The position numbers and the translations under genes were made by a program. A stretch of 64,000 bases of DNA from Chaetoderma sp. LZ-2023a (Eukaryota; Mollusca; Caudofoveata; Chaetodermatida; Chaetodermatidae). The notes beneath the pieces were generated by a model. The model was not told the DNA's origin. It searched no databases and worked only from the letters and a program-made list of their open reading frames with translations. The DNA lies in NCBI GenBank assembly GCA_034401795.1, contig CM067360.1, positions 118,563,572 through 118,627,571 of the forward strand, read 5' to 3'. Of the stretch, positions 19,416-50,356 are shown one piece after another; the first letter of the stretch is position 1; every line of letters begins with the position of its first letter.

Positions 19416-19810
19416 CCTTAAAATTGAATATCAGACATCAGGGCGATACTGGTTAATTAGCTCAAACATAATTCTGCATTACTTCAGTCACCAAAAATGT
19501 CAACTTTACATCGACAGTTTAAACTGAAATTGTGCTGATACGGAGGGGGCAAATGCCCCTCTTTCCCATTCCTGCGGTTGCTTTTGGTTGGTTGTCTGAT
19601 TGGGTAAATACTTACATTAGAGAATCGGTGTTCTAGCCATCTTCACCAATGGGCACAACTTTCAGTTCTTCATACTTGCATTGCAGATGACATCATTCAT
19701 TAGTTTGGATTGAACAAATAGACGTAAAATTTTGGATCTGTTTTCACATCTGTTTAATCGCTTCCTTTTGTTTTACAATGCATTCAAGCAATTCTTTCAT
19801 TTTATCACAG

Positions 19811-22079: not shown

Positions 22080-22445
22080 CTCCAGAGATCAGCTCACTGC
22101 AGTCTTTCATGTTAAAGCCGCGTCAGATTTACCAAGTGAGTCAGCCTGCCTGTCTGCCTGCATGCCTGCCTGCCTTGTATGTCGACATTAGTCAAATTAG
22201 TTTTAAAATATTAAAGGGATGCTAATCTCATTTCAGATGTTGTAAAGATTATGGTATATAGATTCCATATCATTTGCGTCCTACCACATTCCCTTATTCT
22301 GTATCTCAATTATCTGGCGTATTGTTGAACAAATATGGCGTAAATGTTGAACAGTGATCGCCACTATTTTGTCTCAAGCGATAATGTCTGATGTCAGGCA
22401 AGTGACAATGCATTACATTCTTTATTATGTGATACTTATCCCATC

Positions 22446-22528
22446 GAATATTTTGAAACTAATTTGAATGGAAGTTGTTGCTGCCTATGGCAGCAACAAG
22501 TTCCAGTCAAATTAGTTTCAAAATATTC
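22446..22528. terminator. Strong hairpin after the transposase, copy 1
   Basis: 40-nt arms 22446-22485 and 22489-22528 pair at 38 of 40 positions around a 3-nt loop (tat). It is the first of three related hairpins between the two convergent gene ends. The terminator role is only a guess from position. Confidence 0.5.
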
Positions 22529-23396
22529 ACCAGCTTAACTCTATGGTTGCTTTTATGAGAAATTGCCAAACTATAACTGGCACCTCTATGACAGAGTGTA
22601 TATACCGAGGCGGGCGCGCTATGTTTTTTCTGATTGGTTGAAAACTAAATCATGACAGCCGTGATAGGGTGTAGAAATGTACCAGCATTTAGCTACTAAA
22701 GCCTGCATATTTCTCTTTAGTGGCATGATAAAAAGCTTAAAATTATCGGGAGATGAGCTTAGTTATCCTTTAAATAGCACAATTCTTAGCTTCACTTAAG
22801 AAGCGCATCAAAGCATTGATAAGTATAATTGAAACATATGATTCTCCACACGTGGCTCTACATGGGATCGCGTTAAATTGCTACTATCAACACGAGCAAT
22901 ATGAGAGTGCAGACCCTCGCCACCCCATTTTAATCACATTGCATAGTTTCCGGATTTTATTTTTGATTTCCCCCGGATTTTTCGGGTTTTTATGGATTGT
23001 CCAGATTTCTACAGATCCTGCTCAACGTTGTGGAATCCTATAGTGTATGGTTACATCATTTGATGTGTTAAAATTTGAACAAAATCGGGACAATAGTTTA
23101 CGAGTTATCCAGAGGTCCAGAATTTGATCCAATCCGGATCCATGTTCTTTTATCCGGCTCATAACACACCTCTGGAAATCCTCCTGCACGGCATGTTCCT
23201 TGCTTGTGTTAAAATTTGAGCAAAATCGGACCCATAGCTTTTTATATACAGGTGTCTCTGCATGTACGTATACACGCGCGCATGCATGCACGCATGCACA
23301 CGCATGGCTACACGCATACGCACAGACATGCACGTACACAGGCATACTTAATCGCAAATACCAATTACGGGCCGAGGGTGTAACATTCTCGAATTA

Positions 23397-23476
23397 TTTT
23401 TAAAGTAATTTGAGTGGAAGTTGTTGCTTCCCAAGGCCAAAAACATCTTCCCGCCAAATTAGTTTTATAAAATTTA
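23397..23476. repeat. Second hairpin of the same family, copy 1
   Basis: taatttgagtggaagttgtt on the left pairs imperfectly with acatcttcccgccaaattag on the right. It is the same module as the 22446 hairpin and the one at 23612. Confidence 0.6.
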
Positions 23477-23611
23477 TTAGCACAATTCTTAACTTGACTT
23501 GAAAACTGCACTAATTAAAGCATTGATAAATAACTAAAACCTAATTCTCCACACATGCTCAAGATTACCTTGCCTAAAATTAATCTACAGTGAATAACAT
23601 TCTCGATATAT

Positions 23612-23692
23612 TTTAGAACAAATTTGACAGAATGTTGATGCTTTAACAAGATCTTCCAGTCAAATTAGTTTTAAAATATTTGTCAGCATATT
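23612..23692. repeat. Third hairpin of the same family, copy 1
   Basis: The left arm acaaatttgacagaatgttg pairs with the right arm atcttccagtcaaattag. It is weaker than the first hairpin. Confidence 0.55.
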
Positions 23693-23739
23693 GTTATTGT
23701 ACTATAATATCTTTAACTGATTTATTTACGAGTCGTTAT

Positions 23740-25126
23740 TCCAAGAAAAAAAGTATTTTGTGCCTTGCAACTAGTAGAAGAACGTCCATAAAGCTTGGAA
23801 TTACATAAACGCGTTTGTCAGTAAATTGGGTACATCGGGATGAGGATATTGAAACATATCTGATGTAGCAATTATTCCAGACCACAGCAGACTGGACAAA
23901 TCCAGGGTTCATCCTTTGTGAAAATCTCTCCATATTTTATCATCACCAAGGCCCCCACACGTTCTGTGCCACCATCTGGAACAATTGCTACACCCAATCC
24001 ATGGTTCAGGATCCTCGTCATAATAGATTTCTCCACATAGTGCACACATATCGGAATCTATTGTCCTCTACAAGTCTTTTTTTTCGCCCTACTCTTGCCC
24101 TTTCTAGACTTTGCGACCTTGGTAGCTTTCCTGCCATGCTGTGTGTTCTTAGATGTCGACGCGTGTATTTCCATAGGTTCAGCTGTCAATGTCTCGATGT
24201 CAGAATGTTTTGTATGCCTATTCAAGTGACTGGGGATGAGTCATCGCCTCTGATTTGCGGATGGATTCCGACACTTGATCCACCAATACATCCTTTCTGT
24301 TTGATGGCTTTAGTTTTAATCCGTAACACTCCACAAGTGTGATGATTTCACATTTTGTGAAGTTGTAAGAAAATGTAAATGTCAGGACAGCACAGATGGT
24401 TGAAGACGCCCTCTTTGTTAGCACCTGTTTACGGTGCTCCAAGCTCTTGACCTTTCCGAGGTTCGGTAGCTAGTTTTTTTCGATATTCTCCATCAGTAAC
24501 ATTGAGGTAAGAAGTAGTTATTGTCAATAAAAAGTTCTCAATAGCAATGCTACTTGCATTACATCAGCCAGAATACTTACACAGTCTTCTAATAGAAATT
24601 TCGGGTAATTGTTGCACTTTTAACTCGCCAAAATAACTGGACCCAAGCACAGAACAATTCCGAATCTGCAATGATTGTTTCGTGAACGTATTTTAAAAAA
24701 TGTCTGCTTGATATGATCTGAAGAATTTGAATGTATCATCGTTTACATTGGTCAAACCACAGTTTAAATTTTGCTTTCTCTGGATATCACAGATACTTTC
24801 TGGAATTTCGTTGTTTCTTCAATCTCACTTTGAGACACGATAACAGAGTCTAGAAGGGCCACTTTAACTCTCATGTTCTGGTCGAATATTTCACCTTTCA
24901 TATCAATCTGCTTTGAACCAGTTTCCTGAATCGATATTTGGTGTTTGCCATAGCACGCCCACCAACATATCTCACTTTCCCTTGTGCAAAAACAGAGATT
25001 TCTGGCGCGATGGCTGATGACGACTGGCCTGCTATGTCAGTTTGTTTTGTTGTGAGGTCAACAGCAAGTTTACGAATTCTTGAAACTAAGTTACCTATAA
25101 CCAGATCATTTATAGGCAGATCTTTA
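23740..25126 (-). pseudogene. Helicase gene 3' part (SAP-like and PHD), copy 1, frame-broken
   Basis: Same DNA as 34560-36043, but with many one-base indels and an ~80-bp deletion near 24363. The PHD finger (about 24190-23890) loses frame at two single-base losses relative to copy 2. The break before the PHD is different in the two copies: one extra A near 24226 here, a 5-base loss near 35031 in copy 2. Indels crowd toward the gap, so some may be assembly errors. Confidence 0.75.
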
Positions 25127-25626
25127 NNNNNNNNNNNNNNNNNNNNNNNNNNNNNNNNNNNNNNNNNNNNNNNNNNNNNNNNNNNNNNNNNNNNNNNNNN
25201 NNNNNNNNNNNNNNNNNNNNNNNNNNNNNNNNNNNNNNNNNNNNNNNNNNNNNNNNNNNNNNNNNNNNNNNNNNNNNNNNNNNNNNNNNNNNNNNNNNNN
25301 NNNNNNNNNNNNNNNNNNNNNNNNNNNNNNNNNNNNNNNNNNNNNNNNNNNNNNNNNNNNNNNNNNNNNNNNNNNNNNNNNNNNNNNNNNNNNNNNNNNN
25401 NNNNNNNNNNNNNNNNNNNNNNNNNNNNNNNNNNNNNNNNNNNNNNNNNNNNNNNNNNNNNNNNNNNNNNNNNNNNNNNNNNNNNNNNNNNNNNNNNNNN
25501 NNNNNNNNNNNNNNNNNNNNNNNNNNNNNNNNNNNNNNNNNNNNNNNNNNNNNNNNNNNNNNNNNNNNNNNNNNNNNNNNNNNNNNNNNNNNNNNNNNNN
25601 NNNNNNNNNNNNNNNNNNNNNNNNNN
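25127..25626. other. Assembly gap, exactly 500 N
   Basis: A round gap size usually means unknown length. The left contig ends inside the helicase gene. The right contig starts inside the R repeat that also lies 9.6 kb to the left. Confidence 0.98.
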
Positions 25627-25640
25627 GCATGACACGTGTG

Positions 25641-26715
25641 TTTATTGAACTCAGTAAATACTAGCCATTATAAAACGAAATAGAATCCTCACTCTTTGGT
25701 TACTTGGCCAGTTTTTCACTTTGTGTATTGATGCTGTGGACTCGCGGGCATTAGCTGTCACTCCAGTATCCCTTAAACGAACATAATTTGGAATATTTTG
25801 CTTCCATGCCTTTCCCACTACACGTGCAGAGTGCACATGGTCAAGGTAATAAATTGGGAACCGTTATTGTATAAATATACTTTCTGTATGACGCATAGCA
25901 TAATTGTATTGCGTATACTCCTTGTTGTGGATCTTGCGGGATTGCATGTGTGGTGCCTTAGTTGATTTATGGGGCCTGATGTTATGGGTGTAATACCATC
26001 TCGTCTTGGGTTTCCCTGATAGCAGCTTATATATCCTCACTGTGATGCAGACCAGTGTGAGAGTTGTTTCTACTATTATGTTTAATTGGGTATCTTTTTA
26101 CTTGGGTATCCAATTCAGCTAGTTTCCCTGTCTCAAGTTCACTTCTAGCATTATACCAGCCATTGCGTTCTACTATATAGAGACTAGTCCAGCGTAGGTA
26201 AAATGTAGATTTTGAAGTAGTGAATATATATTTGGAATATACAACGAGATTTCACTTCTAGACATTATTGTGCTATAGCTCCCATACTGGATATTATTAC
26301 CAACAGAAATATACACATTTACCGATCTAGTGCTGATCCTCCCTTCACAAAAACTACTAGGTGACAAGCCACAATCATTATCCTACAGTCACCAACAATA
26401 CTACCACGGAAGTCGCTGATTCATCCTAGTGACGGGATATACGAAACACAACACAGCTGAAAATAACATAATGGTAGCCGCGCCAGAAGTTGCATACTCA
26501 CAATACATTTTCTGAAAATAAAATTATTTAAATTATACACTTTTAAAGGCTTAAACTATGAGCCTATATACTGTATATGGAATAGAATCAACTCATGCTA
26601 AGATGTAGTTTATTTCTTTACACATAGCCACATAATGTAAGCTTATAAAAGTATGCAATTTTAACATTTTTATTTTCAATCATTCTGGTGTGAATATGCA
26701 CTTTTAATTAACTTA
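25641..26715. repeat. R repeat, copy 2 (longest)
   Basis: Starts attgaactcagtaaatact. Its 26005-26500 part aligns with 50690-51200, showing that the longer form is a true repeat family member. Confidence 0.8.
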
Positions 26716-28549
26716 TTAGGAATACAATATTGATAACAGCATTCTCCTTAAATTCTCACAATTATTAAATTACGTTCATGAATATAAATATAATTTGTTG
26801 TGTGGTTAAAGAAATAATACGCAAATACATATGGTTCAGTGCAAACGCACCGAAACCAAAGTCTGCAGCCATACAGGTGGTGTCTGGAAAGAGCTCCAGA
26901 CCGGCGTCCAAAGGGGGGGGGGGGGCAAAAGTTAAAACACACATACTGGCTATGCCCGTCTCTATTCAAAATAGTCAATAGGTAATCCCGAGGTCACCGC
27001 GACCTTTGTTAAAAAGATAAAAATATAATAAAATAAAATACAATTTGCATAATCAGTAATAGTCTAGATCACAGCGGCCTAGGCTGTACAGAGAATTCCA
27101 GTATAATCCTAAGGCAACTTCCAAACATCACCTCCCTCAGGGCAAGCCTGGGGTGGTGCCCCTTCACCAGCTGCACCAAGGCCTATACATTTATACGGTA
27201 TTTAAAGGTATTATTATTACTAAACCATTTTATGTCCAATAATTCAACACACGAATGAACATATTAAATATAACTAATAAATACAGATAATAAAATGCAA
27301 GAATACCTGAACAGTCGTATAAATTACACCCATTGATTCAATAATTATAACCCTCGCGAGAAGGCTTAATTAACGAGGAATACGATATTGATACCAGCAT
27401 TCGCTCCTTTAAAGATGCATATTCAAAATAAAATTTCTAAAAATAAAATTGTTTAAATTATTCATTTTAGAGGCTTAAACTGTGAGTCTATTTGTAATGA
27501 AACGAAATGCATCTTAACATATGATGATTCCATTCCATATAAATTAATATACTTTTTAAGTTGCGAAATTGATATATAGGCACAGGCCTCAATTTCAATT
27601 TGGCAACTTAAAAAAACTGCCTCTGTTTCAATTTCGTAACTTAAAAGATTATATTACTTTGTATGGAATGGAATCGCCATATATGCTAAGATGTATTTCG
27701 TTTCATCAGATATAGACAAATTATACACAATTAAAAGATTACAAATTTAACAAAACATTTTCTAACAGACTGGTGTAAATACTCACTTCAAAATCATCGC
27801 AATTATCAAATTACGATCACAAATATAAATATAATTTACAAGAAGGTCTAAAAGACCTAACTTGACGTCATAATCAACTTTACATTATATTATACTAATA
27901 TGTATGGGCCGTGATTTAAATTATACTATGGTTGACTTATATTGAATTCTTATCAAGAATTATAGTCATTGCATGCTGTTATTGCATAGTTTTTTAAAAC
28001 AGCATGCGTCCCGTTGTAGGCCTACACGATTGCACCTTAAATCGCCTGTGTATTTAACCCAGAAATCGAAATATAAATACCTTCGATCGAAAGATATTAT
28101 TTCCATAATAAACTTAACAGAACGAGTTGCCTCCCTTGATAAACATACATATCCCAGGGTCAGAAATCATCTATTTTAATGGTGATTGATATGAATCAGG
28201 ATGGCCGGCGCACCGGATTTGAACAGGTTATGGCCATTTTCGCTAATTGCGGATGAAGTATAGCCTTTGTCACAAAATGATTTCTTGATAGCGATTATCA
28301 AATGCTCAGTGAAATAATACAAGCATTAAACAAGGTCAAGTTCAATAATATTTATTTCACGATTTATGTACATGTTAACAGATACTACACAAGAAACACA
28401 CAAAGTGGACAACAATAAAAAGCGTTCACATAACTTACAATACATAATAATATATTTTTAATGCGCAAAATAAATGTACTGCCTTTAAATACCAAATATC
28501 GGTTTGCAGAATGCTTTTGCGAACTTAGGTACCAGTTTCAAACAGGGAT
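26716..28549. other. AT-rich spacer left of transposon copy 2
   Basis: Same contents as 15926-17752, including the foldback at 27497-27710. No gene seen. Confidence 0.6.
27497..27710. repeat. Foldback, copy 2
   Basis: Duplicate of the palindrome at 16703-16913, with the same arm order and loop. Confidence 0.75.
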
Positions 28550-28955
28550 AGATATCTCACAGGGACTCCTATCCAGTCCAAAAATTGACATCAAAATATA
28601 TTACCATCCGCTACACTATATACAATAATAACAAGGGGCGACAACTTTGAACTTGAATCTTGATACCCTCGGTAAGTTTATGGCAAGAAGGCCTTCGAAA
28701 TACACCTGATTTATCACGCCGCTTAGGCTAAAACACTCTAGTATGATCCACGAAATTATTCATACCCAACACACTTACTGTCGATACGGAGAAGGACAGA
28801 AAATATGCCATCAAAGTCGAAATATTACAACTCTTCGTTTGTAAAATCTTGGTGGACGGAAGTAGATAGCGCGCGTAGATATTCCTGCAATTTCATTGGT
28901 CAGACATATACACGGCACACCTTGCTCTGGCCCAGGGTAAATTGCGGGAAATTTA
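28550..28955 (+). repeat. Left terminal inverted repeat, copy 2
   Basis: Opens agatatctcacagggactcc. The inner part near 28900-28955 still matches the other end (tttcattggtca, ctctggc, ggtaaatt). A 76-codon frame starts inside it (28805-29035) and ends at TAG overlapping a gtaagg donor-like site. Confidence 0.88.
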
Positions 28956-29034
28956 AAGAGTCTGGACTTTTCGCAAACGTCAAAATGTCGCTATCAGAGA
29001 ACAGCATTGATGAAAAGAAAGCTAGATTGATATA
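28805..29034 (+). CDS. Possible first exon, starting in the terminal repeat
   Basis: Open frame of 76 codons from an ATG within the repeat, or 16 codons from the internal ATG at 28985 (MSLSENSIDEK). It ends at a gtaagg donor-like site at 29035. It could be the first exon of the transposase, but splicing to the acceptor at 30602 would make a TAG at the junction, so the link is not supported. Copy 1 lacks the long version but keeps the short one. Confidence 0.25.
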
Positions 29035-30602
29035 GTAAGGTGTATTCATGCCCATAGAAGCCGGGTATTGTGTTTTATCGGGAGAGAGCGGGTGTATCTG
29101 TGTTTGTGGATAGAGGTGCCATGGGGATGGCTGGTTCGTTGTGGTGAGGGCGGGTGTCTGTGTGGCGGTGGAGTAAGGAGGCCGTTCTATAGGCTCTGTC
29201 TATGGTTGTCTATCTGTTATGACGATATATAGAGTCTTGAATCTATAATTTAAATATTTGTCATTTATTTACTTTCACTGTTTTATATTGTCTCGTCTGT
29301 ATATATGTGTGTACATTTGTTGGATTTCCCAATAAAGATTGATTGATTGATCGCTCGATCGATCGATCGATCCGTCGCTTGATCGATCCATCCATCGATC
29401 GATCGATCCAATTTTCCAGGGGGAAGGCCCCCCCCAAAACAAACTATAATTAGTCATATTAAAGGGAGAATAATATCCTATATTTTACCCAATTTCTTCT
29501 GAGAAAGTAAAATTCTGCACTAAGTTATGTCTGCTTGTAAGATCGTATGTGTAGAATTTGACTTTTCAGAAGAAATTGGGTAAAATACATTCCAAGCCCA
29601 CTATGGTGCATATTCACCACTCAAAATGCAGGAGATGCCCTCTAAGAATATCTGGCTTTCACAAAAATTTCCAGGGAGGCCCCTCTGGAGAAATTGAGGG
29701 CCCCCCTGTTGATTGATCGATTGATTGATTGATTTATATATTGGTGTAAAACGGAGGGGTGAGAAAGGGGTGATAGTTTCCCCATCCGAAGATTTGTCCT
29801 CTCACACAGAATTAGTGAATCCCAGTAGTACCCCTACCCTCTAGTTTGTAGCACCACCGATTGTTTAGCCCCGTCAACCCCATTCTGTCAATGTAGCTTC
29901 CTATGTGTATATGATTGTTAGTTGCACGAGTGTCCGAAGGAATTTTTCCAGTGGGCCCGACTGGATGGTCTAGATGGGTGCATCAACTTTTCTCCAATCT
30001 GGGTGGGGGGGGGGGGGGGCGGGGCGTTCTTCATTGAGTCTTGTGAAGCAGCTTTAACCCGTATAAAAGTGAATTGTAAAATTCTTGGATTTAGCTAGTA
30101 TGATAGTGAATGCTCACTTTGGAAACACTATTGTTGTAAGTTGTAACTTTCAGCAACATTATTTGCAAAATGAACATTAGCTATCATACTCATTATTATA
30201 CTAGCGCCTTAAAATTGAATATCAGACATCAGGGCGTTACTGGTTAATTAGCTCAAACATAATTCTGCATTACTTCAGTCACCAAAAATGTCAACTTTAC
30301 ATCGACAGTTTAAACTGTAATTGTGCTGATACGGAGGGGGCAAATGCCCCTCTTTCCCATTCCTGCGGGGTGTTGTTGGTTGGCTGTCTGATTGGGTAAA
30401 TACTTACATTAGAGAATCGGTGTTCTAGCCATCTTCACCAATGGGCACAACTTTCAGTTCTTCATACTTGCATTGTAGATGGCATCATTCATTAGTTTGG
30501 ATTGAACAAATAGACGTAAAATTTTGGATCTGTTTTCACATCTGTTTAATCGCTTCCTTTTGTTTTACAATGCATTCAAGCAATTCTTTCATTTTATCAC
30601 AG
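29030..30602. other. 5' region or intron of transposase, copy 2
   Basis: Contains the LINE-like tail with AATAAA at 29331 followed by GATT/GATC tetramers, the tttacccaatttcttctg foldback near 29483-29586, and a second short GATT tract near 29710. A G run lies at about 30002-30018. No domain-bearing ORF. Confidence 0.5.
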
Positions 30603-32803
30603 GCTCCACTCAACATATATTGAAAACCAAGGTTCGCGTATATCAGCTGATGAAGTAGGTCAGAAATTTAGAGAGGACGTTGGCTTAAATTCTCAACAAT
30701 GCTCAATCGGTGCTTTAATCCGAAAGGTTTTTCGAGGTGTAACGGTTAAGAGGGAACGACTAGATACAGATTGGACAAAACGGGCATCTTACTTTGTAGG
30801 GCTTAAAATGAGAGACCAGGATGAAGATGTTTCTATAACATTAAGTGATGCTCCACAACTTTTGCAACCTGGATTCATTATTATGAGCCAAGATGGCACA
30901 TGTGTTATCATCGGAAAATACACTGGTCTGATTTGTAACGAACACAAGGTACACATGGAAATAAGTATATCATCCACAGGCAGCCTTCTAGTGACGATGG
31001 GTGAGAAACTGATTGACTTTGGGCTCACTAAAGTTACGATGACAAAGAGGGCGTTGTCAGTTGCTCTTTCTGTTCTATCCAGTTTCCGTTTTTTGTACAG
31101 GTTTACCTATACATGCTCTCGATTCAAATCAGAAAGAAAAGTCCATGATACAGACTAGCACAAATCAAGAACATGTCGCATATTCCCCGAAATGTTACAA
31201 GATGTTGCCATATACCCAATATAATTCCTCAACATCGTGCGCTCAATGTGTCAAACTTGGAACCTCTAAGAGTAGGGTTAGACCCAACACATCTACTTTT
31301 GGCCGCGAAGGGCAAAGTGATCCAACTGAAAATATTAACACACATGAGGCACAGGAGATATCACCGACATTAAGCAAACCAGACGAAGTAATGGCATACC
31401 TGAATGAAAGTGTCCCAAATTTGACAGACTTACAGCTTAACCTTATACAATCCCAGATTAGAAATGAACGAGATTCACATAGTAGGTCGTGGGACAGCAG
31501 AATTATCCAACTGGCACTATCAATATGGACACAGAATCCTGGAATTTACAATCATATTACCGAAACCGGTGCATTGGTCCTCCCATCAGAAAGAACTCTT
31601 TGTCGATATAAGAATTCAGTTGACAAGGGAGCTGGTATCAAGGAGGACATGTTGAAATGGATGTATATGCAGGCGAAACAACAGAATCTCCCTGATCATG
31701 GCTACGCAGGCGGATTAATAGTAGACGAGATGTCAATACAACCAGACATTCAGATAACCAATGGAAAAACACGACTGTTAGTTGGCTTCACTGATGTTGG
31801 CTCTGAGGCTGGTGCGTGTTCTAGCAAAAGTGATCCGCTGTTAGCTAACCACGTATGTCAGTTTATGTTTCACGGCCTTACAGGTTTCAGATATTTAGTT
31901 GCCCATTATCCAACAAACCAACTAAATGGGCCCCAGTTATATACTATTTTCTGGGATGTCATCGAAGCATTGATACGGTGGAGCTTTAAGGTAATCTACA
32001 CTTGTCTAGACGGTGCTTCCAACAACCGGTCATTCATCAAGCTCCATTTCACTGATTCACCATATAAATTTCTCATGTCTGTGCCGTCCATGTTTGATCT
32101 CAAACAAGCCATTACATTTCTGGCCGACCCGTCGCACTTGTTCAAGAAAATAAGAAATAATTTACTTGAAAGTGGTAATGAAAAGTGGCATAACAGATTG
32201 CTCGTGTACAAAGGACATGAAATTACATGGACAACCTTTTTGGCAGCCTACCTATTGACAGAGGACCACGTGCGTCCTAACACGGTCAACAAAATGATAA
32301 ATCATTTAGCTGAAGATGTCCTCAATTGCGAAATGCTGCATCTTATTAGACGATATAAGGAAAGTTTGTGTGATGGTGGACATATGTGCGTAGGAGTTAT
32401 TTCATCGCTAGAGCAAACAAGCGTGTTGATTAAGTTTTTTAGAGACACTAGGCCAATATATGATCTGTGTGACGACAGATTGCTGAAATTAGAAAATGTT
32501 GGCAAATGGTTCCTTGAATGGGAAAAAGAAAGTATTTCTAAGAATCTAATGTCGGAAGAAACAAGAGAAGACATCCAATTCATGATTAGTGGGTTTCTAC
32601 AGCTAACAAAGAGAGTTACTCAAGATTTGCAAACTACAATAACACCTGTATATATAAACAGCGATATACTGGAGAATATCTTCTCACAACAAAGAGGGTT
32701 ACACCATGGAGCAGGTAGTAATCATAATTACCAACAGTATAGCTATGCCACTAATAGCATCACCATATGCCAAAAAGTAATTTCGAAGAAAACTAATTCA
32801 TAA
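30603..32803 (+). pseudogene. P-like transposase, copy 2, one frameshift and an early stop
   Basis: Same protein as 19811-22079, with the RFX-like segment starting at the equivalent acceptor (30602). A T run at 31089-31094 has six T where copy 1 has five, which shifts the frame. The second part (31061-32803) then continues in the correct frame. The C-terminus is 23 residues shorter because of a TAA at 32801. The three Asp and one Glu boxes are all kept (for example VDEMSIQP, LDGASNN, LENIFSQQR). The T-run difference could be a sequencing error, so this copy may be functional. Confidence 0.8.
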
Positions 32804-34560
32804 AGGAGGAAATCATCCCAGGGAAGCGGATCCTTGCCATAGAAACACCTGTGCAAGCAGCTGAGACTCTGACTCCAGAGATCAGCTCACTGCAGTCTTT
32901 CATGTTAAAGCCACTTCAGATTTACCAAGTGAGTCAGTCTGCCTGTCTGCCTGCATGCCTGCCTGCCTGTATGTTGACATTAGTCAAATTAGTTTTCAAA
33001 TATTAAAGGGATGCTAATCTCATTTCAGATGTTGTAAAGATTATAGTTTATAGATTCCATATCATTCACGTCTTACCACATTCCCTTATTCTGTATCTCA
33101 ATTATCTGGCGTATTGTTGAACAAATATGGCGTAAATGTTGAACAGTGATCGCCACCATTTTGTCTCAAGCGATAGTGTCTGATGTCATGCAAGTGACAA
33201 TGCATTACATTCTTTATTATGTGATACTTATCCCATCGAATATTTTGAAACTAATTTGAATGGAAGTTGTTGCTGCCTATGGCAGCAACAAGTTCCAGTC
33301 AAATTAGTTTCAAAATATTCACCAGCTTAACTCTATGGTTGCTTTTATGAGAAATTGCCATACTATAACTGGCACCTCTATGACAGAGTGTATATACTGA
33401 GGCGGGCGCGCTAGGTTTTTTCTGATTGGTTGAAAACTAAATCATGACAGCCGTGATAGGGTGTAGAAATGTACCAGCATTTAGCTACTAAAGCCTGAAT
33501 ATTTTTCTTTAGTGGCATGATAAAAAGCTTAAAAGTATCGGGAGATGAGCTTAGTTATCCTTTAAATAGCACAATTCTTAGCTTCACTTGAGAAGCGCAT
33601 CAAAGCATTGATAAGTATAATTGAAACATATGATTCTCCACACGTGGCTCTACATGATATCGCGTTAAATTGCTACTATCAACATGAGCAATATGAGAGT
33701 ACAGACCCTCGCCGCCCCATTTTAATCACATTGCATAGTTTCCGGATTTTATTTTTGATTTTCCCCGGATTTTTCGGGGTTTTTTCGGATTGTCCAGATT
33801 TCTACAGATCCTGCTCAACGTTGTGGAATCCTATAGTGTATGGTTACATAATTTGATGCGGTAAAATTTGAACAAAATCGGGCCAATAGTTTACGAGTTA
33901 TCCAGAGGTCCAGAATTTGATCCAATCCGGATCCATGTTCTTTTATCCGGCTCATAACAAACCTCTGGAAATCCTCCTGCATGGCATGTTCCTTACTTGT
34001 GTTAAAATTTGAGCCAAATCGGACCCATAGTTTTTTAGATACAGGTGTGTCTGCATGTACGGACACACGCGTGCACGCATGCACGCATGCACATGCATGC
34101 TACCCCACGCTTGCGCACAGACATGCACGTACACAGACAGACTCAATCGCAATACCAATTACGGGCCGAGGGTGTAACATTCTCGATATATTTTAAAAGT
34201 AATTTGACTGGAAGTTGTTGCTGCCCAAGGCCAAAAACATCTTCCTGCCAAATTAATTTTATAATATTTATTAGCACAATTCTTAACTTGACGTGAAAAC
34301 TGCACTAATTAAAGCATTGATAAATAACTAAAACCTAATTCTCCACACATGGCTCAAGATTACCTTGCCTAAAATTAAATCTACTATGAATAACATTCTC
34401 GATATATTTTAAAACTAATTTGACAGAATGTTGATGCTTTAACAAGATCTTCCAGTCAAATTAGTTTTAAAATATTTGTCAGCATATAGGTATTGTACTA
34501 TAATATCTTTAACTGATTTATTTACGAGTCTTTATTCCAAGAAAAAAAGTATTTTGTGCC
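32804..34560. other. Spacer between convergent genes, copy 2
   Basis: No gene. It has three related hairpins: 33238-33320 (38 of 40 pairs), about 34188-34268 and about 34398-34480. It also has a cctgcctg tract at 32940-32970 and a cacgcatgca tract at 34060-34135. The organisation is the same as at 22080-23740. Confidence 0.6.
33238..33320. terminator. Strong hairpin after the transposase, copy 2
   Basis: Arms 33238-33277 and 33281-33320 with loop tat. It is unchanged from copy 1. The terminator role is inferred from position only. Confidence 0.5.
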
Positions 34561-34668
34561 TTGCAACTAGTGGAAGAACGTCCATAAAGCTTGGAATTAC
34601 ATAAACGCGTTTGTCAGTAAATTGGGTACATCGGGATGAGGATATTGAAACATAATCTGATGTAGCAA

Positions 34669-34986
34669 TTATTCCAGACCACAGCAGACTGGACAAATCC
34701 ATGGTTCATCCTTTTGTGAAAATCTCTCCCATATTTTATCATCACCAAGGCCCCCACACGTTCTGTGCCACCATCTGGAACAATTGCTACACCCAATCCA
34801 TGGTTCAGGATCCTCATCATAATAGATTTCTCCACATAGTGCACACATATCGGAATCTATGTCCTCTACAGTCTTTTTTTCCGCCCTACTCTTGCCCTTT
34901 CTAGACTTTGCGACCTTGGTAGCTTTCCTGCCATGCTGTGTGTTCTTAGATGTCGACGCGTGTATTTCCATAGGTTCAGCTGTCAA
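34669..34986 (-). CDS. PHD finger, C-terminal part of the helicase gene
   Basis: Reads MCALCGEIYYDEDPEPWIGC, then SNCSRWWHRTCGG, then EPWICPVCC. This is a full C4-H-C3 PHD pattern with the aromatic pair before the His. Basic residues precede it (RKATKVAKSRKGKSRAEKK). PHD fingers usually bind histone H3 tails, so it might steer the element to chromatin. The frame joins exon 4 only across a small indel that differs between the two copies, so the uninterrupted parent probably encoded one protein. Confidence 0.82.
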   Translation of the reverse strand: MTAEPMEIHASTSKNTQHGRKATKVAKSRKGKSRAEKKTVEDIDSDMCALCGEIYYDEDPEPWIGCSNCSRWWHRTCGGLGDDKIWERFSQKDEPWICPVCCGLE

Positions 34987-36540
34987 TGTCTCGATGGCAG
35001 AATGTTTTGTATGCCTATCAAGTGACTGGGGTCATCGCATCTGATTTGAGGATGGATTCCGACACTTGATCCACCAATACATCCTTTCTGTTTGATGGCT
35101 TTAGTTTTAATCCGTAACACTCCGCAAGTGTGATGATTTCACATTTTGTGAAGTTTGTAAGAAATTTGTTGTTTTCAAATATTGTACCTTTTAACTTAAA
35201 ATGTGAAGCATTTTTATCTTCAGACAGATCCTCAAGAATGGATGTAAATGTCAGGCCAGCGCAGATGGTCGAAGACGCCCTCTTTGTTAGCACCTGTTTA
35301 CGGTGCTCCAAGCTCTTGACCTTTCCGAGTTCGGTAGCCAGTTTTTTTCGATATTCTCCATCAGTAACATTGAGGTAAGAAGTAGTTATGTCACTAAAAA
35401 GTTCTAAAATAGCAATGCTACCTTGCATTACATCAGCCAGAATACTTTCACAGTCTTCTAAATAGAAATTTCGGGTAATTGTTGCACTTTTAACTCGCCA
35501 AAATAACTGGACCCAAGCACAGAACAATTCCGAATCTGCAATGATTGTTTCGTGAACGTATTTTAAAATGTCTGCTTGATGTGATCTGAGAGCTTCCTTC
35601 GAATATAACGGTAGTTTTTTTCTCTCCAGGAGAAGGAAGAATTTGAATGTATCATCGTTTACATTGGTCAAACCACAGTTTAAATTTTGCTTTCTCTGGA
35701 TATCACAGATACTTTCTGGGAATTTCGTTGTTTCTTCAACCTCACTTTGAGACACGATAACAGAGTCTAGAAGGGCCACTTTAACTCTCATGTTCTGGTA
35801 GAATATTTCACCTTTCATATCAATCTGCTTTTGAACCAGTTCCCTGAATCGATATTTGGTTTTTGCCACAGCACGCCCACCAACATATCTCACTTTCCCT
35901 TGTGCAAAAACAGAGATTTCTGGCGCGATGGCTGATGACGACTGGCCTGCTATGTCAGTTTGTTTTGTTGTGAGGTCAACAACAAGTTTACGAATTCTTG
36001 AAACTAAGTTACCTATAACCAGATCATTTATAGGCAGATCTTTAAACAATTTTTCGCTGGCTTCAGAAAATACATTTGATGAAAGGTATGCATGGAATCT
36101 ACGATAAAATTCGGTCCAGTCTTTTGTGGTTGAACTTCGGGTCAATGTTTCTTCTTTTATTTTGAGTATTTCACTGTAGTGAAAGTTTAAGAAGAAAGCA
36201 ACATTTTCGGGATTATACTTAAGATTTGTAATGGTAGTGTTTATTAGTTTGTGTTGACTTGTTATAGGCTCTGGTGTGTACAGAGCGCTGAGCATCTCAA
36301 CAGCATCATGTGGACTTAATACAGACGGCAGACTCCAGCTTGTCCCAGGGTCATACTGAACCTGTAACAATCAATACTTGACAAATAATATCATAATAAT
36401 GATTTTCAGAATTGGTCCAATGGTTTCCTAGGACTGTAAAAGGTTGGTTGTTGGTCATTACACATAACCCAAACTTCTCCCCCCCACCCACCCACACCCC
36501 CAGTCACCCCCCCCCCCACCCCCAGGCTTTACCGGCAGTG

Positions 36541-36588
<48 letters not shown>

Positions 36589-38046
36589 CAACAACAAGAG
36601 CTCTGCAAACGGCGCATAATACCCCCGTCATAGTGACAAACCAATGAATGAGAGCTGTCAGAAAATAGCGATCTCTTCCTTAGACTCAGACCAGTCATCC
36701 TATGAAGTTTCAAAGCGATCCATTAAATGGTCAAGGAGTTATCATCTGGAAACCAATTTTCAAGATATTGGATTTTTGATTATCGTAAATTTCTAAAAGT
36801 TTTCCACCTAGTCCAAGTAAGCTATGAGGTTTTATAGCGATCCGATAAACGGTAACAGCGTTATCATCTGGAAACAAATTTTCAAGATGGTCATCGGTGG
36901 CTGGCGGCCATCTTGGATTTCGGATCATAGTCGATTTCGATAGGTTTCTTCCGCTGACCTAGTCCAAATATGCTATGAAGTTTAAAAGCGATCCGAGAAA
37001 CGATAACAGAGTTATCATCCGGAAACCAATTTTCAAGATAGCCACGAGTGGCTGGCGGCCATCTTTGATTTCGGATCATGGTCGATTTCGATGGGTTTCT
37101 TCCACCGAGCTAGTCCAACCACTCTATGAAGTTCCAAAGCGATCCGATAAACGGTAACGGAGTTATCATCCGGAAACCAATTTTCAAGTTTGCCGCCGGT
37201 GCCTGGCGGCCATCTTGAATTTCGGATCATTGTCGATTTCGATAGGATTCTTCCCCAGACATAGTGCAACCACCCTATGAAGTTTCAAACCGATCCGACA
37301 TACGTAACGGACTTATTATCCGGAATCCACTCTGCCACCTGCCCGCCCTTCCGCACGCCCAGACCGCGCCATCACATATTACCTTTACCAATTATTTTTG
37401 CTGGTTATAATAATAATAACAGGAAATATACTTTACACGGCAACAAAAGAGTTTACATGTTGTATGTAATTCTACATTTTAATGTTGTTACTTGTTAGCA
37501 GATGATTTTGCCATTGATTGTATGATGTCAATGAGAAGTGAATGTGCTTAAATAGAAAAGTTAACTAAGTCATAATAAGTCAATAACAATAATGAACTTG
37601 ACATTATAACATCGTCGTCATTGTGCTTCAACATATAACGTATACATTTATTACCTCAAAATCATTTTATACCGAATCCCATCTGATGTATTAACATGTT
37701 CTGACTTCAAATCCATTAACCCGAAGTGAGAAATATTTTGAAACTATATTTTTTAACCATCTGGGTTACGTTTCTTTTAGTACATGCATTATTAAACAAA
37801 AGTTTTTTAAAGCATCTGTCCATGTGAAACACTAATGCCAGATAGGCAATTGCCGATGTCTGGAGAGAGTAGAAATATACAAAGTTGATTCATTACCTGT
37901 CCAGATTGTAGTGTCTTCTCGAAGTCATCAATCGCTCGAAGTTCACTTGCGTCGGAAAGGGTTTCTACAGCAGCGGTACTATCTGATATATTTGCAATGT
38001 ACACCTACATTGTTGGATTAAAAATAACCAGAGATGGATAAAGGAT

Positions 38047-38122
<76 letters not shown>

Positions 38123-38130
38123 TGTGCGTG

Positions 38131-38174
<44 letters not shown>

Positions 38175-38242
38175 CGCACGTGAGAGAGTGCGCGCGAGAG
38201 AGAATGCGAGAGAGAGAGAGATAGTGCGAGAGAGTGTGTGAG

Positions 38243-38280
<38 letters not shown>

Positions 38281-40838
38281 TGAGAGAGTGCGAGAGAGAG
38301 AGAGAGTGTGAGAGAGAGAAACAGGGAGAGAGTGCGAGAGAGAGAGTGCGAGAGAGAGAGAGAGAGAGAGTGCGAGAGAGAGATATAGATGGGGGGGGGA
38401 AGGGTAGAGAGAGAGGGGTGAGGGGGGGGGAGATGGTAGAGGGAGGGAGAGGTGTGTATGGGAGATAGAGAGGGGGATTTGGGGTGGCAGGGAGAGGGAT
38501 GGAGGAGGGAGAAAGAGAGAGAAAGATCGAGACACATATTGTTTGGTGGGTGTGGGGTACATTCCTAAACGAGACTTATGTAGCCTATGCCAAATGTGAA
38601 CATGAGTTTTAATACAAGGATTCATGCAAGAGTTTGAAGTCTCTCCAGCAATTATTCAGATTTTAACGAATCGTAATTTACGCTTACTGTACACAGTACT
38701 ATATGACTAAAAACCTTGTGTGTGCGTGTGTTGTGTGTCATGAGAGAAATTAGGCTACCACGTATGTGGCATTTAAATGTGCCACTGAATACACTGTACC
38801 GTCTGACAACAGGAATTGTCTTGTTGCGGTTCCAATCCAGCTTCCTTACAGAAGTCTACAACATCTGTCTTGGGTCCTCGACAGGACGATGGTAAGTACC
38901 CAAGAACTTGTAACCCATCAATACAGACGGACCGACCCAGTGCCGTCCCAATCTGGCCCGCTTGATACATATCTAGGCAATGTAAAACCAGTCTTGGTAT
39001 TGTAGAACCTTGTGCCTTGTGGACTGTAATGGCGACGGATAGGGCAATCGGAAATTGGTGTCTCTCTGCAAGAACTTTTCTTTTAGCCGGATCATAAACT
39101 GAAAAGCTATACATTTCCAATTTTACAATTATGTTCTCAAACTTCACAGTTGGGCCATCTTCGTCCGTTTTAATAACAACACCCCTCAGACCATTGACCA
39201 GTGTGGAAGATGTATTTCGCAACAGGACAACAGGGCAGTTCATCTTAAGTTGGAGAATTCGTTTTGCACTGTATTGTCTTAGTAGCCTATTGTCGCCTGA
39301 ATCCGTTGCTCTATATGACACAGTTTCACCAGGCATATTATTGAGCATATCAACATTATGGCAATCAACCTCAAAATGTGTTGCGTATAGATGGACGCTT
39401 TCTTCATGTGACATGTTTGATGGTAGCTGGCGCTGTAAACGGCACATACAGGCATTTGTTTCAGGAGATGGATGCCCTCTTTCAAGTTCATTAATCGCAT
39501 TGATTAGAATCACTTCTGAATGTCGTATTACTGTATAGAGATATACTTTATGTGGCATAGCATTTTTCCAAATATCAGAATGGAATACGTGAACAACAGC
39601 ATCCTGATATAGATCATTTGGAACGGGAGGTAACTGATAGAAGTCGCCAACACAAACTACTTGTATTCCTCCAAAATAAATCTCACCAGCGCTTCTCAGT
39701 TTGCGACATACAAACTCCACTGCAAATAATACAACAATAAATCAACACTAACGATTTCCATGTACACAATGGATCCTCACCAGACATGTTTAAGAGGTTA
39801 CGTTTAGCAATCCTAAGAATCTTGTTGTTTTAGGTAAAAAGGTCATGGTCATGGTGACCAAAATAAAGAAATTGATTTCTGGACAAGAACTCAATTTTTA
39901 TTTGATGACTTCACCAAACTTGGATGAGAGATTTCCGTTGACATTTTGCCAAACATTATTAATGTTTGGAGCAAATTTAAGATCAAATGCGTGACGATAT
40001 GGAAAGGTATGCATAGATTTTCGCAATCTCACATTGCCGTTACTGTTCATTTTAGTAATAAGATGAATCAGATGACGACGATGATGATGATGATAATGAT
40101 TGCTGAGATCGATGATAATGATGATAAATGACATAATATTGAGAATAATATTACTAATATTACTAATTACAATGATGAATAATGAAACTGATAGTAGTAA
40201 TAATGATCATGATGGATGTACGTGTGGACAAACAGTCATTATAGATAGACAAACAAATGTGCGTCTGTGTGGGTGGGTGTATGGATGGATGGATAGATAC
40301 ATATTTTCACATTGGTGGCTTTTGGGTGGATGGGATGAGATGGGATGGATGTGTGGATGGAAAGACGGAAAGACGTTTGAAAACTTTGAGTTCCCATTAA
40401 GGAAATTTTCATAAATGATGGTAAGCCAATTTGTTACTTGTTCATCGTGTATTCAATTGCTAAGCACCAGAGCAGGTGAGTATAGAATCATACGAGACGA
40501 GTCACACAATTATTACTCTCATTCAACATTCATCACTGTCGGTGATTGTTGATGTATCAGTATTATTAGCAGAAAGAAACTGGTGTGCATGTAGACGGGT
40601 GGGGAATCGTCGCCTTCGCAATAATTCAACACCCCACCCCCGGTATATCCACCGTCACCACCACCACCACCACGACACCCCCCACCCCACCCTACCTGTT
40701 GCAACCTCCCTCCACCTCGCCTTAGCCATGATTCAACGCACACTTGATTTTCAAGTGTGAAAACGTGTATATATATGGGGGGGGGGTGTTAAACATCATT
40801 TTCATTCCTTTGTTTTAGCACACGCACGCACGCACGCA

Positions 40839-40925
<87 letters not shown>

Positions 40926-41341
40926 CCACCACCACCACTACCAAAGCCCTGCCGATTGTTTATTTTACAGTATTTTACATTTTCAAACACTTTTTGGCTT
41001 ATCAAGCTTATTTCATCTATTATTAGGACATCTGCATGTTGGACACGTTTTGCGGTTGCTTCATGTTCCGGCATCTGTAGACGATCTATTAGTTCATTGT
41101 TCGTGAATCGACCATCAAGCATCCCTGCCCAAGAATGGATGGTGGTACCGTCTAAAAAATGCCGTGACGCTATACCCGTACTTGCAGTGATGGGTACTGT
41201 TTTTCCAATACTTCTTAGGGAGCTAGCAACGGATTTAATTAGGAAAGTCTTGCCTGTACCAGCCTGGCCCATTACAACAACATTGTGCCCGTTTAGAATT
41301 AGCTGTTCAGCTTTCAATTGGTCGTCACTTAGCGATTCCAT
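34669..41341 (-). CDS. PIF1-like helicase with SAP-like and PHD C-terminal parts
   Basis: Gene model built from splice signals on the minus strand: exons 41341-40969, 39719-38800, 38004-37897 and 36361-35018. Phases agree at every junction: 1-nt carry-over after exon 1, then phase 0 twice. The encoded order is a superfamily 1 PIF1 helicase, a ~350-aa region of unknown fold with GKVRYVGGRAVAK, a SAP-like stretch (ITLAECYGLKLKPSNRKDVL), then after a frame break a PHD finger (34986-34669). Joined length would be about 1,000 residues. Helicases of this type unwind DNA or remove obstacles. Here it may help replicate or process the element, which is inference. The gene starts about 90 bp inside the right terminal repeat. 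Introns hold a CG-rich tetramer repeat, a GA microsatellite and a 151-bp minisatellite. Confidence 0.75.
35018..36361 (-). CDS. Helicase gene exon 4: unknown region and SAP-like segment
   Basis: Acceptor gattgttacag then GTTCAGTATG. 447 codons are open to a TGA at 35018. It contains APEISVFAQGKVRYVGGRAV (about residues 170-190 of the exon). The GKVRYVGG box is reminiscent of the YVAGY-like box in P-family C-termini, but this is weak. Near the end, TKCEIITLAECYGLKLKP and DVLVDQVSESI fit the helix-turn-helix pattern of a SAP DNA-binding motif. A 5-base loss relative to copy 1 near 35031 shifts the frame just before the PHD part. Confidence 0.7.
   Translation of the reverse strand, partial: VQYDPGTSWSLPSVLSPHDAVEMLSALYTPEPITSQHKLINTTITNLKYNPENVAFFLNFHYSEILKIKEETLTRSSTTKDWTEFYRRFHAYLSSNVFSEASEKLFKDLPINDLVIGNLVSRIRKLVVDLTTKQTDIAGQSSSAIAPEISVFAQGKVRYVGGRAVAKTKYRFRELVQKQIDMKGEIFYQNMRVKVALLDSVIVSQSEVEETTKFPESICDIQRKQNLNCGLTNVNDDTFKFFLLLERKKLPLYSKEALRSHQADILKYVHETIIADSELFCAWVQLFWRVKSATITRNFYLEDCESILADVMQGSIAILELFSDITTSYLNVTDGEYRKKLATELGKVKSLEHRKQVLTKRASSTICAGLTFTSILEDLSEDKNASHFKLKGTIFENNKFLTNFTKCEIITLAECYGLKLKPSNRKDVLVDQVSESILKSDAMTPVT
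36362..37896 (-). other. Helicase intron 3 with AAT microsatellite and 151-bp minisatellite
   Basis: Holds C-rich DNA at 36480-36525, (AAT)n at 36541-36587 and the tandem array at 36690-37330. The rest has no recognisable gene. Confidence 0.65.
36690..37330. repeat. 151-bp minisatellite, ~4.3 units
   Basis: The phrase tatgaagtttcaaagcgatc starts units at 36701, 36823, 36974, 37125 and 37276. The last three steps are exactly 151 bp and the first is shortened to 122. Each unit also has ggaaaccaattttcaag and ctggcggccatctt. Confidence 0.9.
37897..38004 (-). CDS. Helicase exon 3, small
   Basis: 36 codons, VYIANISDSTAAVETL onward to KTLQSGQ, between acceptor aatgtag and donor caggtaatg. Phase 0 at both ends fits its neighbours. 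No domain is recognised. Confidence 0.65.
38005..38799 (-). repeat. Helicase intron 2: long (GA)n/(GT)n purine tract
   Basis: 38048-38120 is nearly pure GA and 38140-38170 is GT. 38200-38540 is interrupted GA with G runs. It produces spurious Ser/Leu and Arg/Glu ORFs. A purine strand this long could form triplex DNA. Confidence 0.92.
38800..39719 (-). CDS. Helicase exon 2: motifs III to VI
   Basis: Acceptor ttatttgcag then TGGAGTTTG. Reads VVCVGDFYQLPPV (motif III), VIRHSEVILINAINELERG (motif IV-like), NCPVVLLRNTSSTLVNGLRG (motif V region) and FPIALSVAITVHKAQGSTI (motif VI region), then the PIF1 closing segment ALGRSVCIDGLQVLGY. Donor at cagacg/gtacag. The length of 920 nt leaves phase 0. 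Confidence 0.85.
39720..40968 (-). other. Helicase intron 1
   Basis: A GAT/AAT-rich stretch lies at 40070-40215. CCA-rich DNA is at 40650-40700. A long CGCA/ACGC tetramer tract occupies 40820-40915. No domain-bearing frame. Confidence 0.6.
40820..40925. repeat. (ACGC)n tetranucleotide tract
   Basis: About 24 units of cgca with one indel near 40840, then CA repeats and CCA triplets. Confidence 0.93.
40969..41341 (-). CDS. Helicase exon 1: Walker A and B
   Basis: From the ATG at 41341: SDDQLKAEQLILNGHNVVVM, then GQAGTGKT (Walker A), TASTGIAS (motif Ia), and VLIIDEISLIS (Walker B). It ends TAC T before gtaaaata. The next exon supplies TG, making Leu. PIF1 proteins often begin their domain this close to the start, but an additional upstream exon is possible. 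Confidence 0.82.
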
Positions 41342-41431
41342 TTGATTGAAAACAAATTTGAGTATGTGTACGCATTAGCGTGTTATTATCTATTTATCAG
41401 TATTATTATGTAAATATATTACGTATTTGCT

Positions 41432-41846
41432 TGAGTTTCCGTAATTTACCGCGAGCCAGAGGGGGGCGTGCCGCGTCAAGATTTGACCAATGAAACTGCG
41501 TCAATTTTTTATCTCAAGAGCGAGCTATCTACTTCCGTCCACAAAGATTTTACGAACGAAAAGAGCTGTAATATTTCGACTTTGATGGCATATTTTCTGT
41601 CCTTCTCCGTATCGACAGTAAGTGTGTTGGGTATGAATAATTTCGGTGATCATACTAGAGTGTTTTAGCCTAAGCGGCGTGATAAATCAGGTGTATTTCG
41701 AAGGCCTTCTTGCCATAAATGTACCGAGGGTATCAAGATTCAAGTTCAAAGTTGTCGCCCCTTGTTATTATTGTATATAGTGTAGAGGATGGTAATATAT
41801 TATGATGTCAATTTTTGGACTGGATAGGAGTCCCTGTGAGATATCT
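41432..41846 (-). repeat. Right terminal inverted repeat
   Basis: Its reverse complement opens agatatctcacagggactcc and follows 28550-28870 almost base for base. Inner similarity fades at about 41435. Confidence 0.9.
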
Positions 41847-48000: not shown

Positions 48001-49654
48001 TATACACCTGTGCAAAAGTTAAGCACCAGCAAAAACAATAGAACGTAGAAAAATGATGGTACACTAGGCTGCCATACTTTTTGTCCCCGCGTTAGCTGAC
48101 ATAATTCCAAGTACGAAATGCACATGCATGCATGACTTCACGCCGCTTGATGTCCGTGCGTGGCGGGAAACAGCACACGTGTTCAGTTATGTAAAAGTCC
48201 AGTTTGAGGTGTAGAACATTACATACAGATTTAGGCGACAAGATTAGGAATTTTGTGTTCATGACCGTGGTTTATTTGTACAGAGAGAATTAGCTCTTGA
48301 TTGTGAACCGCTATGGCAAGACGAAGGTTAAGTGATCGTGTGAAATGGCAAATCATAGGCATGCATACCACTGGTATGTCATGCAGAGAGATTGGCAGAC
48401 AGCTGAACATTAACCATACTGTAATCAGTCGTTTGATTGCAAAACATGGGCAAACTAACGAGGTGAAGGACAGGCCTAGATCTGGAAGACCGAAGAAGAC
48501 TACTGCCCGTGATGATCGAGCCCTAGTACGCCTTGTTAGGAGATCTCCATTCACCAACAGCAGAGTGCTCAGCCAGCAATGGGAAACGCGCAATAGAGTG
48601 TCAATGTCTACCGTCAAAAGGAGACTGTATGCTGCTGGCATGAAAGCTAGGAGACCTGTCAGACGTCCTCTCCTCACTGCACACCACAAAGAGGAGTGTC
48701 TGAGGTGGTGCAACGAAAGAAGACACTGGAACATGAGATCCTGGAGACGGGTACACTGGTCCGATGAAAGTCGGTTCCTGCTTCATGCCACAGATGGCAG
48801 AACTCGTGTATGGAGGTCCAGACGCACGGCGTACGACCAACGTAACATCATGTAAGAAGTTCCATTTGGTGGAGGTTCCGTTATGATATGGGGGTGCATC
48901 TCATTTGATTGTAAGCTGGATCTGTTGACTGTACCTGGAACCCTAAATGGACAAAGATATCAAGATTCCATACTGGATAGAGTTGTGGTCCCTCATTTTG
49001 TAAATCATGCACCTGGAACCCACCCTATATTCATGGATGACAACGCCCGACCACATCGTGCTAGAGCTGTGCATGAATACCTCCGCCAGAATGCCATCGA
49101 AACCCTACCATGGCCAGCAAGGAGCCCTGACATGAACCCTATTGAGCATATCTGGGACAATGGTGAGAAGGAGGGATCCTCCTGTGCAGAACCTACTGGA
49201 ATTAACAGACGCACTCCATCTTGAATGGCAACGAATACCACAATGGCGTATCAGTCGGTTGGTGACCAGCATGAGACGTCGTGTCCAGGCCGTCATCCAG
49301 GCACAAGGTGGATATACCCGGTATTAATAATGACAGTCTCAAACTCGTGCACAGATGTTAAACTTCGTTTTCAGATACCATTAATGACAATCTAGCCACG
49401 TGTGTCAACTGTAGGGCAATAGTTGTCAGTTGTGTCAATGTAACTGTATTCAGGCCTCGTTTTCAAGTTCAAACAAAAACATACAGTGTTTCCCCACCAT
49501 CATAATCAGCATTCCTCTAGTTGCATTATTACCTCTTGCACTAAGATGGATGGGTACATAAATGTTTATGCTATTGCTTTCTTCATAGCACATGCATATA
49601 CCCTCGCATGTGCGTAAAAATAGGGTGGTGCTTAACTTTTGCACAGGTGTATAT
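48001..49654 (+). mobile_element. Tc1 element with 28-bp terminal repeats
   Basis: 48001-48028 and the inverse of about 49627-49654 share tatacacctgtgcaaaagtt plus aagcacca. The ends lie in TA-rich DNA, as expected for TA target duplication, though the exact cut cannot be placed within tatatata. The length of ~1.65 kb is normal for Tc1. Confidence 0.9.
48313..49327 (+). pseudogene. Tc1 transposase, DD34E, two lesions
   Basis: The N-terminal paired-type HTH reads GMSCREIGRQLNINHTVISR. Next come the GRPKKTTARDD linker and a second HTH (RVLSQQWETRNRVSMSTVKR). The catalytic Asp is in HWSDESRFLL. A TAA at 48853-48855 stops the frame just before VPFGGGSVMIWGC. The middle Asp is in FMDDNARPH, and 34 residues later the Glu in SPDMNPIEHIWD. 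A one-base shift follows at about 49160, after which the C-terminus continues in another frame to 49327. Only two lesions suggests a young but dead copy. Confidence 0.9.
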
Positions 49655-50264: not shown

Positions 50265-50278
50265 GCTACGCTCTGCCA

Positions 50279-50356
<78 letters not shown>

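Follow-up and report, generated by a model that had tools for sequence, protein, structure and literature searches.

A 64,000-nucleotide stretch of the genome of the caudofoveate mollusc Chaetoderma sp. LZ-2023a (contig CM067360.1 of assembly GCA_034401795.1, positions 118,563,572 to 118,627,571; in the following the window) raises the question why a gene for a P-type transposase and a gene for a PIF1 helicase lie together between one pair of long inverted repeats. The best explanation for the whole, which we regard as probable, is a cut-and-paste DNA transposon representing a new lineage of the P superfamily, with an antiparallel helicase of the PIF1-PHD type as its standing partner. The element is repeatedly mobile, as seen from its repeats of about 400 bp, the 8-bp duplications, its presence at several genomic sites and the pairing of both genes in two families.

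Ends, copies and gene linkage

The element spans positions 28558-41838 (13,281 bp) between two 8-bp copies of AGATATCT. Its left terminal inverted repeat, which starts with CACAGGGACTCC, occupies 28558-28950 on the plus strand, and the right one 41436-41838 on the minus strand. While a first-pass comparison paired 28550-28835 with 41561-41846 (286 bp, 98% complementary), the corrected repeats align over 403 columns at 89.3%, and 299 of the 310 outermost columns are identical. The inverted repeats of about 410 bp, almost identical over the outer 320 bp or so, which the initial annotation reported are thus real, but its edges at 28550 and 41846 had to be moved. The octamer AGATATCT stands directly outside CACAGGG at each end (28550-28557 and 41839-41846) and is its own reverse complement, and because of this palindrome the window alone is ambiguous as to whether it belongs to the repeat or to the target. 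Among the short genomic matches to this repeat, which defines family 1, 44 out of 51 start at query position 8 or 9, and the sampled short derivatives of the family are bordered by other octamers as 8-bp duplications. Therefore AGATATCT is the target site duplication, the option that it forms part of the inverted repeat was dropped, and the true ends lie 8 bp further in than first assigned. Aligning the edges of several copies, as the initial annotation had suggested, gave both these ends and the 8-bp duplications. The repeats enclose the transposase gene on the plus strand and the helicase gene on the minus strand, and the convergent order described before agrees with the Pfam matches on the two strands.

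In the 2.44 Gb of genome searched, the family-1 repeat has at least 69 matches (40 of 184 candidates were scored). Contigs are labelled here with C and a number. The copy at C4:49514891-49538323 retains the two repeats, and in it the transposase and every part of the helicase follow one another as in the window. Its additional length of about 10 kb is due to a nested insertion in helicase exon 3 (C4:49522357-49532337) with long open frames, which we read as a Gypsy-like long terminal repeat retroelement; the flanking sequence of this copy is an AT microsatellite, in which 7 of 8 bases are shared by the two sides. A right repeat together with helicase and transposase is found at C4:80165633, and one with the helicase and a partial transposase at C12:191203175, while the right repeat at C4:101350611 is accompanied only by helicase exons 1 and 2 within the 20 kb read. 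Hence further insertions combine these ends with both genes, one of them complete and two with one repeat, which is what the initial annotation had proposed to look for.

Ten gene-less fold-back copies of about 150 bp were picked from the genomic matches. Their 8-bp duplications are exact in six cases, carry one mismatch in two and do not match in the other two; two of the six exact ones (L024 and L026) look like one site in opposite orientation. All ten look like non-autonomous derivatives, so that repeat copies unrelated to the genes, a case raised in the initial annotation against its own proposal, were not found in this sample. As a separate observation, three tandem copies of the repeat (query 47-405) with a spacing of about 1,065 bp are located at C9:67548612-67551099 beside transposase fragments, with no helicase match.

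The locus is present twice in the window itself, at 15552-25126 and 25643-36044, around a run of 500 N (25127-25626) which ends the first copy; both the gap and the second copy escaped the initial annotation. Apart from an insertion difference of about 710 bp (26005-26713), the region 15921-25126 matches 26714-36044 collinearly, with bins of 500 columns being 96-99% identical (gaps aside) and a single bin 93.4% identical. The duplicated stretch comprises the left flank (about 1.8 kb left of the repeat), the transposase and the 3' end of the helicase gene, and the insertion within it (17761-25126, plus strand) runs from the left repeat through the transposase to the helicase 3' end, where the N gap cuts it. 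Because the flank of about 1.8 kb is common to both copies, they represent the same insertion, and 15921-25126 was not counted as independent support. The likeliest cause, as we infer, is that two haplotypes were laid end to end; a segmental duplication is possible as well. The transposase frame of the first copy is open over 773 codons (19758-22076, plus strand), and the one at 30603-32869 is split over two frames with two stops near its end. Both lack 12 residues which the copies at C4:49.5M and C4:80.17M share with the closest outside relative, and therefore neither of them need be active.

Transposase matches at 43% and 37% in the genome revealed a second family on C11 and C778. The element at C11:134509992-134525436 has inverted repeats of 28 bp (26 of 28 identical) which start with CATAGGCAC, and its ends read CATAGG in place of the CACAGGG of family 1. 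Another copy lies on C778; two blocks of it are 98.8 and 99.1% identical to C11, and the different left flank of this copy fixes the left end of the family. For this left end at least 41 genomic matches were obtained (40 of 336 candidates scored), 41 of 41 starting at the first base, and three of the four sampled derivatives (958-1,239 bp) show exact 8-bp duplications. Over 785 alignment columns the C11 transposase shares 34% identity with that of the window, and it matches PF21787 (E = 7e-12) as well as RFX (E = 0.004). The helicase core lies on the strand opposite to the transposase, and the portion with the helical region and the PHD finger (E = 0.006 for PHD) is encoded beyond the transposase, which thus stands between two helicase parts.

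For a genome-wide view, clusters were built from the matches of the transposase (58 of 90 candidates scored), of helicase exon 3 and of helicase exon 2, with a limit of 15 kb. A helicase match lies within this distance of 17 out of 24 transposase clusters, the transposases going down to about 30% identity. Counted from the helicase, a transposase is near 11 of the 15 clusters for exon 3 and 14 of the 33 for exon 2, where chance would give 0.004 and 0.010, together about 0.014. The helicase is antiparallel to the transposase in all 16 unambiguous clusters; in the C10 cluster transposase matches occur on both strands. Both window copies and two family-2 copies are among these 16, which are thus not all independent, and some of the paired clusters consist of single weak matches (C4:15.36M, C4:6.24M). 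Chance nesting of two independent elements, or a host helicase gene with transposon debris around it, had nothing in its favour beyond the single window as it stood before other copies were seen. The probability of this is close to nil: other insertions with both genes and the second family already refute it, and the linkage counts rule out chance nesting. The same three lines support the earlier suggestion that transposase and helicase travel together. The stable single-copy host locus which the initial annotation had considered as a counter-case was not encountered, the helicase being multicopy and lying near the transposase at 17 of the 24 transposase clusters.

The transposase and the helicase

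The transposase gene (30603-32869, plus strand, its start being an inferred splice acceptor) encodes a predicted RFX-like winged helix followed by an RNase H-like domain. PF21787 is matched by the window protein with E = 2e-15 and is present in all 27 aligned proteins, namely 26 of the 45 relatives found and the window. A profile of these 27 sequences had a sole match in the PDB (E up to 1), the Drosophila P transposase 6p5a, with E = 2e-12 in three collinear blocks. The catalytic residues of P are D230, D303 and E531 (PMC7776569). In the profile comparison D230 is aligned to the aspartate of a DEM motif and E531 to the glutamate of NSDILE, while the proposed counterpart of D303, the aspartate of DGAS, is outside the aligned blocks. 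An AlphaFold2 model of the transposase (mean pLDDT, the predicted local distance difference test, 79.9) gave 6pe2 and 6p5a as top Foldseek matches (E = 1e-19 and 4e-19; target template modelling (TM) score 0.76-0.77). The assignment of the enzyme to a P-like superfamily, made at first from the open frames, is in agreement with all three results.

The same model also matches the DNA-binding domains of RFX1 (1dp7; 78 columns, target TM 0.78) and RFX5 (0.72). A profile of nine N-termini (nine of 12 slices; P0008, P0012 and P0013 were dropped by eye) found RFX5 (E = 0.0028) and RFX1 (E = 0.007) in the PDB, and the Pfam RFX family was detected in three of the nine N-termini (best E = 1.2e-5) and in one of the 27 whole proteins (E up to 0.01). 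It is because of this profile and these Pfam matches that the RFX match is placed at the N-terminus of the transposase. A THAP domain is not among the Pfam matches of the 27 transposases (E up to 0.01). Judged from the profiles and the model, the N-terminal DNA-binding part seems to be RFX-like instead of THAP. The GTP-binding insertion domain (Pfam TNP-like_GBD) was found in three of the 27 transposases, that of the window not being one of them. A possible first exon (28985-29034, plus strand, donor GTAAGG) with an ATG about 35 bp inward of the left repeat is a sequence reading only; its junction with the next exon reads TAG, and the exon is unproven.

The helicase gene on the minus strand begins with an ATG about 95 bp inward of the right repeat. 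Exon 1 (40969-41341, donor uncertain) contains the Walker A motif GQAGTGKT and DEIS (PF05970, E = 4e-21), exon 2 (38800-39719) the remaining PIF1 core and the 2B domain (PF05970, PF21530), and exon 3 (35018-36361) a mostly helical C-terminal region with the motif GKVRYVGG, the helices being predicted from the model of the relative P0046. The gene ends with a PHD finger (34672-35031; PF00628, E = 2.7e-7), whose frame in the window copy differs from that of the preceding exon. The spliced helicase matches PF05970 with E = 2e-32. A 151-bp tandem repeat of 3.5 copies lies between exons 2 and 3 (36806-37329).

Thus PIF1 and PHD parts are present as initially annotated, but the SAP-like part is unsupported: for the exon concerned no Pfam match to SAP was obtained even at E = 10, and the label was dropped. 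The exon 3 region has no convincing Pfam family and no PDB chain, and a profile of this C-terminal part (the window exon and eight slices) retrieved two proteins in a wider protein search. The model of the full-length relative P0046 (pLDDT 81.2) is matched by Foldseek to the Candida Pif1 (E = 2e-32), and the Helitron transposase 7lcc is also among its fold matches.

In the search for helicase relatives the best 7994 candidates were scored, and the best 120 of 3150 were listed. The best listed relative, from Saccostrea, is 42% identical over 99%. Others from Mytilus, Pinctada, Argopecten, Haliotis, Mercenaria and a hemichordate can be aligned along the length of the helicase, with single local alignments covering 36-99%. 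A GKVRYVGG-like motif after the helicase core is common to the relatives. In an alignment of 22 helicases (21 of the 120 listed and that of the window, entered without its PHD part) 16 have a PHD finger, and the PIF1-helical-PHD architecture is retained in relatives at 25-45% identity. Two proteins akin to those of the element, P0013 and P0067, are filed under metagenome-assembled genomes of the bacterial symbionts Sedimenticola and Thiodiazotropha and probably represent host contamination.

What the helicase may do for the transposon

Several observations weigh against a P-type transposon with a standing helicase. The pairing is not absolute: seven of the 24 transposase clusters, four of the 15 exon-3 clusters and 19 of the 33 exon-2 clusters are unpaired. 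Four of these 19 are near a family-1 end, among them C4:49.5M, whose two genes have been separated by the nested insertion. Three are near a family-2 end, a helicase without transposase match lying about 2 kb from it at C13:94.8M, C13:102.18M and C8:61.72M. The remaining twelve show PIF1 matches of 23-37%. In the viral and other genome contigs searched no related locus was found, and the linkage is thus known from one genome. The window transposase alone, without the profile, matches no P transposase in the PDB, and its own N-terminus has no Pfam RFX match. Both window copies are damaged by frame breaks and by the missing 12 residues, and the C11 element of family 2 has no 8-bp duplication. 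Finally, the ratio of nonsynonymous to synonymous substitutions (dN/dS) between family-1 copies is weakly below 1, too weak to decide: for the transposase it is 0.60-0.78 in three long comparisons, with two short comparisons giving 0.28 and 1.47, and for the helicase exons 0.18-1.24.

Hosts and Helitrons commonly contain PIF1 genes. The helicase could therefore be a passenger from one of these sources without any role in transposition, its PHD finger perhaps serving as a shield against host silencing, and both the weak dN/dS ratios and the transposase clusters without helicase match are in favour of this. However, a passenger is hard to reconcile with the pairing at 17 of 24 clusters, which extends to transposases of about 30% identity and is always antiparallel where the order is unambiguous, or with an architecture kept in distant relatives. 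We consider it quite improbable.

In the reading that we prefer, the RFX-like winged helix would read sites in the terminal repeats, and the transposase would excise and insert the element as in P. With the helicase ATG about 95 bp and the possible transposase ATG about 35 bp inward of a repeat, the repeats would act as promoters and are probably at the same time the sites of the RFX-like domain. The PHD finger would bring the PIF1 helicase to chromatin, and the helicase would drive a long synthesis of the displacement loop (D-loop) or break-induced type by which the 13-15-kb element is recopied into the donor gap. Such recopying would spare a long element from loss or internal deletion at each excision. 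This role in the donor gap, deduced from the anatomy of the element and from established biology, is the least certain step. D-loop synthesis over long tracts is driven by PIF1, and it is by refilling of the donor gap from the sister that P copies persist; a resident helicase of this kind would be in keeping with an element of this length. The donor repair of P has been linked to a host helicase, Bloom's (PMC7776569).

The same transposon could also use its helicase in a replicative transposition step, for setting up a fork or remodelling the strand-transfer complex, and not in donor-gap repair. Host factors do this for phage Mu. The helicase being a standing partner in two families speaks for this possibility, as do the helicases which accompany other DDE transposons, such as RecQ in KolobokH (PMC9587614) or the one of AcademH (PMC10045372). 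Yet the 8-bp duplications around the short derivatives need nothing beyond cut-and-paste, and we regard a replicative step as unlikely. More far-reaching is the idea of an old, animal-wide branch of P-type elements which swapped the THAP domain for an RFX winged helix and possesses its own PIF1-PHD replication helicase, thereby supplying the DNA synthesis for which other cut-and-paste elements depend on the host. Such a branch would, as far as we know, include the first cut-and-paste element to drive its own donor-gap recopying. The idea is tentative, and we see it as conceivable but rather doubtful.

Relation to known transposons

The element shares with Drosophila P and vertebrate THAP9 the RNase H-like DDE core, the positions of D230 and E531 and the 8-bp duplications. 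In contrast to the repeats of 31 bp in P and 13 bp in zebrafish THAP9, the 2.9-kb length of P and the THAP domain (PMC7776569), it has repeats of about 400 bp, a length of 13.3 kb, a helicase and an RFX-like part. Of the traits of the P superfamily, terminal inverted repeats (in family 1 far exceeding those of P in length, in family 2 of 28 bp) and 8-bp duplications are present, whereas the single gene in about 3 kb of Drosophila P is replaced by two genes in 13,281 bp. Galileo, another member of the superfamily, has no helicase gene to our knowledge. It resembles the present element in its P-type transposase and long inverted repeats (0.5-1.2 kb), but it is described with a THAP domain (PMC3688188) where ours is RFX-like.

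A DDE transposase together with a helicase is also known from KolobokH and Kolobok-1_CCri, in the latter on the complementary strand, but KolobokH combines a Kolobok transposase with RecQ (PMC9587614). Membership in Kolobok was rejected, because the transposase matches P and the helicase is a PIF1. AcademH is likewise a helicase-encoding lineage, described with an Academ transposase and duplications of 9-10 bp (PMC10045372) in contrast to the P-type enzyme and 8 bp found here. With Helitrons the element has a PIF1-family helicase in common. Helitrons possess neither inverted repeats nor target duplications. A Rep (HUH) nuclease is not among the listed Pfam matches of the element proteins and their relatives; together with the inverted repeats and the 8-bp duplications this rules out Helitron mobility.

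Accessory helicases (KolobokH, AcademH) and long repeats (Galileo) are thus already known. In our searches of the open-access literature no paper among those listed appeared to describe a P-superfamily transposase with PIF1 or RFX; an entry in Repbase or Dfam that never appeared in print is conceivable. A review of giant transposons mentions Pif1 nowhere.

P elements are a standard model of DNA transposition and are described as small and reliant on host repair. If our explanation is true, the P superfamily is broader than in textbooks and includes a lineage of four to five times the length of P elements, which has a different DNA-binding domain and its own PIF1 helicase. This bears on the question how large cut-and-paste elements avoid loss or internal deletion during donor-gap repair, and it may account for annotated genes of mussels, oysters and scallops that are PIF1-like and carry a PHD finger.

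Outside the element the window contains two further types of repeats. A Tc1/mariner-type transposase is encoded in adjoining open stretches at 48307-49221 (plus strand), the first of which matches HTH_Tnp_Tc3_2 with E = 1e-15, and a dispersed repeat family of 84-99% identity occurs at 15453-15913, 25643-26537 and 50259-51762.

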